From NCBI GenBank assembly GCA_938017975.1, contig CALIKQ010000063.1, positions 1 through 41,656 of the forward strand: a stretch of DNA of 41,656 nt, read 5' to 3'. A model generated the notes under the pieces. It had not been told where the DNA came from. It did no database searches and worked only from the letters and a program-made list of their open reading frames with translations. The DNA comes from an uncultured Pseudomonadales bacterium (GTDB lineage Bacteria > Pseudomonadota > Gammaproteobacteria > Pseudomonadales > Azotimanducaceae). Position 1 is the stretch's first letter, and each line of letters starts with the position of its first letter. Below are positions 24,474-27,780 of this stretch, piece by piece. The position numbers were made by a program, and so were the translations under genes.

Positions 24474-25640
24474 CTATTTCAAGCATACAGCGGCCTTGTT
24501 AGAAAGACTGACGCCGCGACTGCCCTGCCGAAAAGGATTGCGATCGTGACCGTTGGTTAAAGCGACAAAGCTTACGCCGGTTGCCGGGTCTGCCCAGGCA
24601 ATTTGACCTCCTGCGCCGTTGTGGCCAAATGCGGTAGGACTGTTAAGGTGACCAAAGCCTCTGAGATGACGGTTTTTGTCACCGGCAATAACGATGCCTA
24701 AACCGCGAAGCACATCGATACCCAGATAGGGATCTTTTAACCTTTCTGTTCTTACCTTGCGTGCCTCAAAAATGGTGGATTGGCTCCAGGGCGTTTCTGA
24801 AAAATTTTCGGAATCCCCATTGAAGCCCAAAAGTCCCTGGTAGAACAGTGCCAGCGATGCTGCAGAGGTATAGCCGCCGCCCCCTGGAATTGGAACTTGC
24901 CTAACTGAAGTCGTATTAAACCTCGTGATGGCCTCTTCGGTAACCTCGGTGATCGGTGGCGGGGACATATTTCGGGCCGCGTAATCAGCATCCGAAGGAC
25001 CATCGCCCACATAAGAAATATCTACAATTCGGTGCTGATGGGGTTCGGGGCAGCCAACCCAAAAATCCGATAGGGACATCGGGCCTGCAATGCGATCTTG
25101 TATCATTGAAGCAAATGTTTGTTCGTGAATGGTCTCTAGTATTTCAGCCAGTACCCACAGGCTAGAACTAGGATGATAAGTATAGGCAGTCCCAGGAGCC
25201 CAATCTAAGCGCCACTGTTTGAATCTTGCGCGCTTGCGCTTCGAATCCCAGTAATCCGTCGGCTTGAAGGGGGCATTGGGAAATCCTGCGGTGTGCGTCA
25301 ATAGATGCTCAACGAGGACAGCGGACTTTTCATCTGTGCTGAATTCTGGGATCCACTCACTCACGGATCGATTGATATCCAGATCACCTGATTGCATCGA
25401 AAGCCATGCTAACGAAGAGGTAATGGCTTTGGTGGCAGAAAAAATAGGATAAAGGGCTTCATTGGTAGCATCACCAAAGGTCTCAAATGCAAGTATTTTA
25501 CCGCGATAGGCCAGGGCAATCTGGACAGAAGGAAGCCCATCCTCAGCAACGCTCTGCTCAGCTTTCAACCGAAGTTGCTGTAAAGCGTCGGGGTCTAACT
25601 GTAGCGGTGCTGCCGTTGGCGTTTCATCTAATCCGGCCAT
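24474..25640 (-). CDS. beta-lactamase-related serine hydrolase (EstB/class C-like)
   Basis: A 388-residue serine hydrolase. The frame opens at 25700, but AGGAGG (25647-25652) sits six bases before the ATG at 25640, so I start there (MAGLDETPTAAPLQLD). Motifs: SATK with Ser68 and Lys71, a tyrosine at 155 in YTYHPSS, and a C-terminal HNGAGG box in place of KTG. These define the penicillin-binding-protein-like family that includes esterases, lactonases and D-aminopeptidases. There is no signal peptide from this start, so a cytoplasmic esterase is likelier than a resistance beta-lactamase. Single gene, minus strand. Confidence 0.85.
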   Translation of the reverse strand: MAGLDETPTAAPLQLDPDALQQLRLKAEQSVAEDGLPSVQIALAYRGKILAFETFGDATNEALYPIFSATKAITSSLAWLSMQSGDLDINRSVSEWIPEFSTDEKSAVLVEHLLTHTAGFPNAPFKPTDYWDSKRKRARFKQWRLDWAPGTAYTYHPSSSLWVLAEILETIHEQTFASMIQDRIAGPMSLSDFWVGCPEPHQHRIVDISYVGDGPSDADYAARNMSPPPITEVTEEAITRFNTTSVRQVPIPGGGGYTSAASLALFYQGLLGFNGDSENFSETPWSQSTIFEARKVRTERLKDPYLGIDVLRGLGIVIAGDKNRHLRGFGHLNSPTAFGHNGAGGQIAWADPATGVSFVALTNGHDRNPFRQGSRGVSLSNKAAVCLK

Positions 25641-25887
25641 CATGATCCTCCTGTTCGTCCGTGGAAAGAGTAGCACGTGCTTGCGGCCGGGCCTAAGCAT
25701 CTTATGGATCTGCGCTAGCCATGACTGAGATTGTCCAGCGTTGCTTCTTACTCAGGATCAAGTGGACTGCTTACAAGTCAGTATTCGTCTTATTGGATAA
25801 TGCTCTCGGTGATTCGATTGGGGTGGCAGTGCGATGCGAAGTCACCGAATTCAATTGGATCAATGAAAGGCAAGTAGTCAGGAGGAA

Positions 25888-25942
25888 GCGGTAACCAGAA
25901 AGTTGTAAACAGAAAGCGGTAAACAGAAAGCGATAAACAACC
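25888..25942 (+). repeat. 14-base tandem repeat, about 3.8 copies
   Basis: Units gcggtaaccagaaa (25888-25901), gttgtaaacagaaa (25902-25915), gcggtaaacagaaa (25916-25929) and a partial gcgataaacaa from 25930. The array ends about seven bases before the ribosome site of the peptide gene. It could be a repeated regulator site or simply an unstable minisatellite. Confidence 0.85.
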
Positions 25943-25948
25943 ATTGAA

Positions 25949-25954
25949 AAGGAG
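25949..25954 (+). promoter_or_regulatory. ribosome binding site of the double-glycine peptide gene
   Basis: AAGGAG followed by a five-base AT-rich spacer to the ATG at 25960. One of the best ribosome sites in the window, and strong support that this short frame is translated. Confidence 0.8.
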
Positions 25955-25959
25955 ATTAA

Positions 25960-26124
25960 ATGAGAACACTGAACTCAGAGCAATTGGCGTCTGTCGAAGG
26001 CGGTCTAGACCTGGTTGATGCGGCGGCAATGATTGCATCGATCTCGAGTTTCACACCAGCGACCATGGCATTTGGATATCCGATCGCAGCGGCATTGGTT
26101 ACGATTGAAGTTTTGTCAGAGTAG
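25960..26124 (+). CDS. double-glycine-leader peptide precursor (class II microcin/bacteriocin-like)
   Basis: A 54-residue ORF. The first 15 residues, MRTLNSEQLASVEGG, match the double-glycine leader consensus: Leu at -12, Leu at -7, Val at -4, Gly at -2 and -1. The colicin V leader MRTLTLNELDSVSGG is strikingly similar. The predicted 39-residue core begins LDLVDAAAMIASISSF and continues through PATMAFGYPIAAAL to an acidic end. The core is hydrophobic and rich in Ala, Ile, Val and Ser. It has no Cys, Lys or Arg and four acidic residues, so unlike most bacteriocins it would be anionic. Known double-glycine precursors are cut and exported by C39-peptidase ABC transporters; none is in this window. 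A secreted signal or other export substrate is an alternative. Confidence 0.75.
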   Translation: MRTLNSEQLASVEGGLDLVDAAAMIASISSFTPATMAFGYPIAAALVTIEVLSE

Positions 26125-26258: not shown

Positions 26259-26420
26259 CGTCCAGACCCAAGATCCGTAAAAACGAATAGGTCTTTCGAT
26301 CACTTTCAGTCCGCGTTCAGCACGTGATGCGTGCTGAGCGCGGTATTGATTACCTAATGCCTGTAAGGCGTGGGCATCGAGTTCTCGAGGTTGCGGCGGA
26401 TTGGTCCGGGGTCTACCCAA
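26238..26420 (-). CDS. possible small protein overlapping the end of pntB
   Basis: A 60-residue frame with a TTG start at 26420, overlapping the last bases of pntB. It begins MGRPRTNPPQPREL and ends IRFYGSWVWTAITAQG. I do not recognise it and see no ribosome site. A 14-base hairpin lies inside it. It may be non-coding 3' region. Confidence 0.2.
   Translation of the reverse strand: MGRPRTNPPQPRELDAHALQALGNQYRAQHASRAERGLKVIERPIRFYGSWVWTAITAQG
26312..26344. other. long near-perfect hairpin downstream of pntB
   Basis: ccgcgttcagcacg (26312-26325) pairs with cgtgctgagcgcgg (26331-26344) around a five-base loop; the only non-Watson-Crick pair is one T-G wobble. No T tract follows in either direction. 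It lies 69 bases after the pntB stop on the pnt transcript and could protect its 3' end or act as a protein or RNA binding site. Confidence 0.65.
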
Positions 26421-27780
26421 ACTCTCCTATAACGCCTGAGATGCTCTCTTTGGCGTCTCCAAAAAGCATTCGAGTGTTTTCTCCAAAAAACAGCGGGTTA
26501 TCGACCCCTGAAAAGCCGGAAGCCATGGACCTTTTAAGCACGAAAACGGTTCGGGCTTGGTCTACGTTAATGATTGGCATGCCGTAAATTGGACTATCAG
26601 AATCTTCTCTAGCACTTGGGTTTACAACGTCATTGGCTCCGATCACGATCGCAACGTCGACGTTCTCGATACGAGGATTAATATCGTCCATTTCGACGAG
26701 TTGCTCGTAAGGAACATCCGCTTCAGCGAGCAGAACATTCATGTGTCCGGGCATTCGCCCTGCTACCGGATGGATGGCGTAAGAAACTTCGCAACCATTA
26801 GCCTCTAGGATTTTTCCGAGTTCTTTAACGACGTGTTGAGCTTGAGCCACTGCCATACCATAGCCGGGCACGAAGCACACGTTCGACGCTGCTTCAAGAA
26901 TATAGTAGGCATCTTCTACGGAGACAGGCTTAACCTCGCCCTCAACCGCTTTGGCAGACTTCACAGCACCGAATCCACTGAACAACACATTCGTGAGAGA
27001 GCGGTTCATGGCTTTACACATAATATTGGTGAGAATGATTCCAGATGCACCGACAAGAGCGCCAGCAACGATCAAAATGTTATTGCCCACCGCAAACCCA
27101 GCTGCGCAGGCGGCGATGCCTGAGTAACTGTTAAGCAGAGAGATTACGACTGGCATATCCGCACCGCCGATTGGGATAACCGCCATAACACCCAGCACCA
27201 GCGCCAAGCCCAAAAGCGCATAGAGATATGGCGACGTCGCCGAAGGCTCAAGGCAGAATAGGACTGCACAGGCGACGATACCAAGGAGGAGTCCGGCGTT
27301 TAGAAATCGTTGCAATGGGAAAACGACTGCGGCGCTATTGATGCGTTCACTGAGTTTGCCGTAGGCGATTAAGCTACCGGTAAAGGTCAAGCCACCAATC
27401 AAAATGGCCAGCACGATGGTAGCGGCTGTAAATGTTGAGGTCTCGCTCGTGCCAAGATAGAGCGTCGCCCATCCGACAAGCAGACTGGATGCACCGCCTG
27501 ATCCGTTAAATAGAGCGACCATTTCGGGCATGCTGGTCATTGCGACCAAGCGCGCTGCCAGCGCGCCAACGGTTGCACCGACGATCATGCCGCCGATTAT
27601 GAATTCATAGCTGACAACCTCAGCGCTGATTAGTCCGGAAACAACTGCGATAAACATTGCAGTGGAAGACAAAAGATTGCCGCGTTTTGCCGTCGCAGGA
27701 GATCCAAGCATCTTCAATCCAAAGATGAATAACGCTGCAGCAAGAATGTAGGCTAGATTTGCAAGTAAATCGATGCTCAT
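26413..27780 (-). CDS. pntB: NAD(P) transhydrogenase beta subunit
   Basis: A 455-residue protein with about nine hydrophobic segments in its first 265 residues followed by the NADP-binding domain (dIII): YGMAVAQAQHVVKEL, the HPVAGRMPGHMNVLLAEADV loop, VAIVIGANDVVNPSA, GMPIINVDQARTVFVLKRS. These are the conserved PntB motifs. With PntAA and PntAB it forms the proton-translocating transhydrogenase that uses the proton gradient to make NADPH from NADH. Its ATG overlaps the stop of pntAB (ATGA, 27777-27780). The three-gene split of the alpha subunit is the Rhodospirillum-type arrangement. Confidence 0.97.
   Translation of the reverse strand: MSIDLLANLAYILAAALFIFGLKMLGSPATAKRGNLLSSTAMFIAVVSGLISAEVVSYEFIIGGMIVGATVGALAARLVAMTSMPEMVALFNGSGGASSLLVGWATLYLGTSETSTFTAATIVLAILIGGLTFTGSLIAYGKLSERINSAAVVFPLQRFLNAGLLLGIVACAVLFCLEPSATSPYLYALLGLALVLGVMAVIPIGGADMPVVISLLNSYSGIAACAAGFAVGNNILIVAGALVGASGIILTNIMCKAMNRSLTNVLFSGFGAVKSAKAVEGEVKPVSVEDAYYILEAASNVCFVPGYGMAVAQAQHVVKELGKILEANGCEVSYAIHPVAGRMPGHMNVLLAEADVPYEQLVEMDDINPRIENVDVAIVIGANDVVNPSAREDSDSPIYGMPIINVDQARTVFVLKRSMASGFSGVDNPLFFGENTRMLFGDAKESISGVIGEFG

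Follow-up and report, generated by a model that had tools for sequence, protein, structure and literature searches.

Peptide gene and its neighbourhood

The window, that is the whole stretch of DNA analysed (41,656 nucleotides, contig C63 of the assembly), contains a small open reading frame lying between two larger genes. The features of this region are as follows.

24474..25700, - strand: gene of a beta-lactamase-fold serine hydrolase, divergent left neighbour (Pfam search on the window copy)
25886..25939, strand not applicable: 14-bp tandem repeat, 3.9 copies (repeat scan), directly upstream of the ribosome site of the peptide gene
25949..25954, + strand: Shine-Dalgarno-like AAGGAG, 5 bases upstream of the ATG (sequence reading)
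25960..26124, + strand: gene of a 54-residue peptide with a double-glycine (GG) leader, stop codon included (reading of the open reading frame; 12 of the 15 genus genomes have an orthologue)
25960..26004, + strand: leader of 15 residues, MRTLNSEQLASVEGG, with L-12, L-7, V-4, G-2 and G-1 (translation and comparison of orthologues)
26005..26121, + strand: core of 39 residues, hydrophobic and acidic, the predicted mature peptide (predicted cleavage)
26311..26343, + strand: terminator-like hairpin of 15 pairs with a weak T tail, between the peptide gene and the convergent pntB (scan)
26413..27780, - strand: pntB, convergent right neighbour (window annotation and domain search)

The small gene is translated as MRTLNSEQLASVEGGLDLVDAAAMIASISSFTPATMAFGYPIAAALVTIEVLSE*. 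The 54-residue frame with its AAGGAG site and ATG, the leader with its Leu-12, Leu-7, Val-4, Gly-2 and Gly-1, and the core devoid of Cys, Lys and Arg and containing four acidic residues were all read here as in the first-pass annotation of this DNA. The computed GRAVY and pI of the core are 1.21 and 4.05, respectively, and a structure prediction of modest confidence (mean pLDDT 71.5) gave two helices spanning residues 6-29 and 33-53 of the peptide. Inspection by eye of the 60 bases preceding the gene in each of the 11 relatives did not show the 14-bp tandem repeat. Two overlapping terminator-like sites were found in comparison to 0.8 per shuffle, a number not clearly beyond chance. A promoter scan found none, and neither RNA families nor tRNAs were found in the window.

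The neighbourhood was compared in seven of the 11 relatives' peptide loci. A similar hydrolase gene lies to the left of the peptide gene in all seven (similarity judged by eye, Pfam assignment on the window copy), and pntB lies to its right in six, directly in four of them and behind a rhomboid gene in two; the seventh locus, L027, ends before the pntB position. The gaps flanking the peptide gene are about 115-290 bases on each side in the window and three relatives, which leaves little room for an immunity gene. In agreement with the first-pass annotation, neither an immunity gene nor a dedicated exporter was recognised beside the precursor in the window or the relatives' loci, in a survey that very small or unrecognisable frames would escape. 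A bacteriocin with a hidden immunity gene was considered and rejected, the neighbourhood holding nothing recognisable as such a gene.

In G001 (L028:4959-6140, - strand), G011 and G013, the three genomes of the ATPase-intact group described below, a rhomboid-family gene separates the peptide gene from pntB. Used as a query, the G001 rhomboid matched these three of the 15 genus genomes and none of the other 12; a rhomboid piece adjoining pntB in G006 (L113:2-478) was missed by this query. The rhomboid was rejected as a partner of the peptide on the basis of this distribution, and it was left out of the explanation because it is not general in the genus.

Orthologues of the peptide and selection on its gene

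Frames combining an ATG, a Shine-Dalgarno-like site, a GG-leader pattern and a length of 35-90 codons were counted in the window and in its dinucleotide shuffles. The window contains one such frame in comparison to a mean of 0.05 per shuffle, and at least one was present in 5 of 100 shuffles, so the pattern by itself is moderately unlikely to arise by chance and no stronger than suggestive. The reality of the gene is therefore decided by orthology. A six-frame search of 97 genomes revealed full-length orthologues (65-100 % identity) in 12 of the 15 genomes of the genus, including the one studied here. A frame broken in close relatives had been named beforehand as an observation that would speak against the gene; the full 54-codon frame is intact in all 12 sequences. 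Two more matches outside the genus had E values of about 0.09, i.e. at chance level. The three genus genomes giving no match are assemblies of 62, 72 and 80 % completeness; two of them also lack pntB, and in the third the contig stops 482 bases past pntB. A chance open reading frame was rejected in view of the 12 genus sequences with synonymous sites near saturation. Judged by this conservation, 25960-26124 is a real, easily overlooked small gene.

Orthologues differ pairwise by a mean of 0.22 at first, 0.11 at second and 0.55 at third codon positions. In the leader, positions -12 (L), -7 (L/I), -4 (V), -2 and -1 (G) are kept in all 12 sequences, positions -11, -10, -9, -8, -6, -5 and -3 vary with three to five residues each, and positions -14 and -13 show two residues each. 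All 12 genus sequences thus carry the leader of a C39 substrate, defined as L-12, L/I-7, a hydrophobic residue at -4, G-2 and G/A/S-1, and the annotation of the frame as a GG-leader peptide gene is borne out. Constraint concentrated on the C39-recognition positions is what recognition of the leader by a C39 peptidase would produce.

A conserved leader followed by a variable core had been anticipated for such a family. The leader is indeed kept, but the core is the more conserved part, with pN/pS of 0.16 vs 0.40 for the leader (66 pairs). The 39-residue core is the same in five genomes (G002, G003, G005, G008 and G010), whose core-coding sequences nevertheless show 8-19 synonymous differences in each pair, at about 31 sites. 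On these substitution patterns, the peptide gene is under purifying selection. A near-invariant core argues against a bacteriocin engaged in an arms race.

Family models and distant relatives

The only matches of the peptide in Pfam and NCBIfam were those to Bacteriocin_IIc (PF10439; 21.5 bits, E 0.00023, cut-off 27.1), TIGR01847 (13.1 bits, cut-off 15.7) and TIGR03949 (11.9 bits, cut-off 21.5). All three scores fall below the curated cut-offs by which a class II bacteriocin would be recognised. The likeness to these families lies in the leader, which aligns; the peptide differs from them in its sub-cut-off scores, its acidic conserved core and the lack of a recognised immunity gene. At E <= 10 the peptide was the only PF10439 match in its own genome (E 0.0014, below the cut-off), and 9 of 14 control genomes also gave some match at this threshold. 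At E <= 0.001 the model matched 3 of 206 genomes of the family, all of them below the cut-off and outside the genus, whose 15 genomes gave no match. No plasmid-borne relatives were found by tblastn at E <= 1.

A profile built from the 12 peptide sequences matched six further genomes among the 206 of the family (E <= 0.01). The matches in G214, G192, G134, G135 and G237 are weak GG peptides, and the sixth, in G140, was rejected as a relative as it sits within a larger frame. Those in G214 and G192 show some likeness to the core as well, around P33-A43, as judged by eye and from an alignment; the stretch is short and does not prove common origin. In the order-level sample the profile matched 2 of 390 genomes at E <= 0.001, both belonging to the genus.

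Several other GG-leader frames were observed. Small orphan frames of the MREL..VSGG type with dissimilar cores occur in the same family (L082 in G237, L083 in G135 and L084 in G134); in G237 a C39-type exporter match, among the matches listed, lies at a distance of about 4 kb. The scan of 20 flanks of exporters from other genera found no credible GG peptide, a weak negative, as it recognised the exporter itself in 11 of the 20, required a ribosome-site pattern and also passed over the G237 peptide. A lanthipeptide-type cluster is present on contig C40 of G001 (L067). It comprises two ABC proteins which we take to be of the NHLM type, a protein of 1018 residues in which DUF4135 and LANC_like domains were recognised, and a frame of 123 residues that matches nothing in Pfam and, judged by eye, has a GG leader.

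The C39 exporter locus

The PF03412 (C39) search of the assembly gave two matches, on contigs C68 and C38, and none in the window, which confirms the first-pass statement that no C39 exporter is encoded there. The C38 match is a type I secretion ABC protein lacking the catalytic Cys. The protein encoded on C68 is the sole C39 match with an intact triad in this genome. The two features of interest at its locus are listed below.

L017:8114-10138, - strand: C39 protein of 674 residues, contig C68 (PF03412, triad intact; orthologues L068-L079)
L017:6832-8052, + strand: TLC-type (ATP/ADP translocase-like) transporter next to the C39 gene

The gene order on C68 is metA - MATE - SDR - HlyD - C39 - TLC-type transporter - serC-like - Tct-type genes, with the labels serC, SDR, MATE, metA and Tct assigned by sequence reading; the HlyD-type gene precedes the C39 gene. 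The expectation that export, if any, would rely on a C39 system elsewhere is consistent with this finding. A C39 protein with an HlyD partner, which had been proposed as the object of a genome search, is thus present, but the ATPase of this exporter has decayed in most of the genus (see below). The TLC-type gene, whose PF03219 match covers 116 residues only, is present in the genus loci wherever the contigs reach that far. Two TolC-type outer membrane proteins are also encoded in the genome.

A C39 match was found in 13 of the 15 genus genomes, each at the common locus as far as the contigs extend; for some of these loci the comparison covered the large genes. Among 20 flanks taken from other genera, seven (L124-L128, L131 and L135, representing four genera; in L124 the C39 gene itself fell below the cut-off of the script) have around the C39 region at least three of the genes that accompany it in the genus, and the remaining 13 flanks are without these neighbours. 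The presence of the locus in four other genera indicates that it is older than the genus.

The ABC transmembrane model PF00664 matched the C68 protein with 36.7 bits (cut-off 28) and three of the four decayed proteins tested, the exception being that of G014. A structural model of the C68 protein was of low confidence (mean pLDDT 65.9) and has helices in the membrane domain; its best Foldseek match was PCAT1 (E 1.2e-18), with a TM-score of only 0.27.

Loss of the ATPase motifs

The catalytic motifs were checked in 12 aligned genus proteins encoded at the C68-type locus. G008 was left out of the alignment because its gene lies in two frames, the C39 protein of the G001 C40 cluster was not counted as it belongs to a different cluster, and the G004 protein is cut by the contig end. 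The C39 Gln, Cys, His and Asp are present in all 12 proteins. Walker A, the signature and Walker B are present in three (G001, G011 and G013; in G011 the residue following the Walker B Asp is ambiguous) and absent from the other nine. The ATPase piece of G008, in its own frame, has no Walker A, giving a total of 10 decayed copies among 13 in the genus. The C68 protein of the genome studied here lacks Walker A, signature and Walker B and has no PF00005 match; among the proteins tested, PF00005 matched both intact ones and none of four decayed ones. Sub-threshold NCBIfam ABC matches persist around residues 550-635 of the C68 protein.

For comparison, 20 high-scoring C39-type proteins of other genera of the family, ranked by the genus-protein profile, were taken from among the matches listed. 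Walker A and the signature were each recognised by the motif script in 19 of them and Walker B in 17, and the four proteins with a miss (L093, L102, L107 and L110) showed recognisable motif forms on reading, so that all 20 sampled proteins, among the matches listed, kept their ATPase motifs. In a tree of the C39 and membrane domains the nine decayed copies group together, apart from the three intact ones and from other genera, with support of 93/96, which is below the level starred by the tool. The tree is midpoint-rooted and G006, G014 and the C40 protein form long branches that drew a warning from the tool; its topology fits a single ATPase loss.

The nine decayed copies keep 639-674 codons open (G004 up to the contig end, G014 from a chosen late start). 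In decayed pairs dN/dS ranged over 0.07-0.17 in the C39 domain, 0.17-0.30 in the membrane domain and 0.20-0.29 in what is left of the ATPase domain. These ratios come from six pairs (G002/5, G003/10, G005/10, G002/3, G010/12 and G000/4) that are not independent and several of which have dS > 1; two more decayed pairs with saturated dS gave no ratio. The intact pair G001/G011 gave 0.14, 0.10 and 0.13 for the C39, membrane and ATPase domains, respectively. In every decayed pair the ratio of the ATPase domain exceeds that of the peptidase domain, as relaxed constraint would give. By these estimates the ATPase remnant is constrained, though not as strongly as the peptidase or as an intact ATPase. 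The open frames and the dN/dS values indicate that the decay is not plain pseudogenisation. The G008 gene is split over two frames by an error or a mutation. A literature search of limited depth found no report of a C39 ABC protein with a lost ATPase.

Co-occurrence of the peptide and the C39 protein

The peptide gene and the C39 gene are unlinked (contigs C63 and C68), and their pairing is inferred from co-occurrence inside one genus. A C39 match is present in 10 of the 12 peptide carriers. This agrees in the main with the expectation that carriers of the peptide should possess a C39 protein; the two carriers without a match, G007 and G009, depart from it. The G009 assembly is 84 % complete and consists of 760 contigs. 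G007 is 94 % complete, and its peptide is intact with the leader kept. Its exporter locus (L111:10084-11051) holds remnants in the form of two frames of 153 and 169 residues overlapping by four bases. The 169-residue frame matches the ATPase remnant, the 153-residue frame was taken as the start of HlyD by position and look (no tblastn match at E 1e-4), and the other compared genes of the locus were all matched. G007 could reflect either a recent deletion, an assembly fault or a peptide able to do without the C39 peptidase.

The C39 locus is also found, among the matches listed, in other genera whose genomes gave no match to the peptide profile; the exporter must therefore serve, or have served, substrates other than this peptide. 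The most economical reading is that the peptide is, or recently was, a substrate of the C68 C39 protein.

Discussion

The explanation that we prefer, and to which we give a little better than an even chance, is that of a C39-processed, probably membrane-associated and self-directed GG peptide with an unusual, possibly ATP-independent processing partner. The 15-residue leader would dock on a C39 cysteine peptidase and be cut after the GG, and cleavage would free a 39-residue hydrophobic, anionic and probably two-helix peptide. The likely peptidase is the C68 C39 protein encoded with its HlyD-type adaptor. The ancestral state would have been an ATP-driven peptidase-containing ABC exporter, of which most of the genus, including the genome studied here, has retained the peptidase and the membrane domain and lost the ATPase. 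Cleavage would then probably take place on the inner side of the membrane, where the product would insert or cross without ATP hydrolysis by the C39 protein itself. Another transporter half could be an alternative source of energy. The very hydrophobic product might insert spontaneously, it might be helped by a second ABC half, or it might not be translocated. With a core so nearly invariant, a fixed partner, which may lie within the cell or the species, is more likely than the role of a rapidly evolving bacteriocin, and the peptide could be a signal, an envelope or a biofilm peptide. The invariance of the core, its acidity and the lack of a recognisable immunity gene argue for a producer-directed role and against killing.

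CvaB with colicin V represents the same kind of pair, a peptidase-containing ABC transporter and its GG-leader substrate. Other published systems are compared here as described in the respective papers. The leader consensus of PCAT substrates comprises L-12, E-8, L-7, G-2 and G-1; residues -7/-12 form a hydrophobic knot, and specificity resides in position -4 (PMC6959990). The leader encoded in the window fits this consensus except for Gln in place of Glu at -8. The C68 system has in common with PCAT1/CtA the leader motif, the C39 triad, the membrane domain, the HlyD partner and the best fold match; it differs from PCATs in the ATPase motifs absent from 10 of 13 genus copies, the unlinked peptide and exporter genes and the conserved core. 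Producer-serving GG peptides are exemplified by EbfG1-4 of Synechococcus elongatus, small proteins that need the C39 transporter PteB and play a role in biofilm of the producer (PMC4997328); the window peptide resembles them, by description, in the C39 dependence proposed for it and in a role that may serve the producer. In Neisseria gonorrhoeae NapABC/NapP the C39 peptidase is separate from the ABC exporter, and the Nap GG peptides act on the producer, causing autolysis (PMC11798529); they are likened to the window peptide by description and are cationic, whereas the window core is acidic.

A C39 peptidase encoded apart from the ABC exporter is also known in FapD of Pseudomonas, which carries a Sec signal and works in the periplasm (PMC5557850), and in these two respects it differs from the C68 protein, to which it is likened by description. 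In contrast to FapD and NapP, HetC requires its ATPase residues in addition to those of the peptidase (PMC10986499). HlyB and other C39-like (CLD) proteins of type I secretion have a working ATPase and a dead peptidase (PMC8277102); the C68 protein, alike in architecture, appears to be their mirror image, the opposite activity being lost.

Three other explanations were weighed. An ordinary class II bacteriocin or microcin-like peptide, exported by a C39 ABC protein and active against competitors, would account for the GG leader, for the single Pfam match being Bacteriocin_IIc (below the cut-off) and for the predicted two-helix hydrophobic peptide (mean pLDDT 71.5). It is at odds with a core that is near-invariant where arms races produce variation and acidic without Lys or Arg, with a hydrolase gene and pntB as neighbours across short gaps, and with an exporter that has lost its ATPase in most of the genus; we regard it as distinctly unlikely. 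Hardly any more probable, though still to be placed above it among unlikely readings, is that the decayed C39 protein is the degenerate half of a heterodimer in which another ABC half hydrolyses ATP and the peptide is secreted, a proposal that differs from the preferred explanation in the translocation step only. Some heterodimeric ABC exporters have degenerate sites, the heterodimeric exporters TM287/288 and TmrAB are among the fold matches of the C68 model, and the decayed domain is under purifying selection and retains an ABC-like C-terminal piece. Such a heterodimer is made less likely by the exporter locus, where a second ABC gene was not seen, and by the simultaneous absence of Walker A, signature and Walker B from the C39 half, a loss which to our knowledge exceeds that in any known degenerate site.

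The peptide might also be an uncut intracellular membrane microprotein, with a GG leader that is either a leftover or put to some other use. G007, which retains the peptide next to mere remnants of the C39 locus, would be explained in this way, and a hydrophobic core with two predicted helices would suit such a protein. The docking positions are, however, kept in 12 of 12 sequences, that of G007 included, while neighbouring positions change, and the C39 triad is present in 12 of 12 proteins checked, which makes this the least probable of the explanations considered.

The interpretation given in the first-pass annotation is, as a whole, partly supported. The best-known GG peptides are bacteriocins or pheromones with an ATP-driven exporter, often encoded nearby. 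A GG-leader peptide is in itself of a known kind; what is unusual is the frozen core together with an ATPase-less C39 protein as the likely partner, and it is the latter, not the peptide, that would surprise a specialist. A single-copy peptide is kept near-constant while its presumed exporter retains the cutting and membrane parts only. If the peptide and the C39 protein work together, the genus would provide a natural test of which part of a PCAT is needed, and it would point to a conserved peptide, a signal or an envelope factor, that escapes the family models used. We put forward, as a tentative proposal that is possible and as yet doubtful, that the ATPase-less C39 peptidase-permease is a stable machine maintained by selection, which cuts the conserved GG peptide at the membrane and lets it insert or cross with no ATP hydrolysis of its own. 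In most of the genus, a bacteriocin-type exporter would then have become a device by which a fixed, self-directed peptide is matured independently of ATP.
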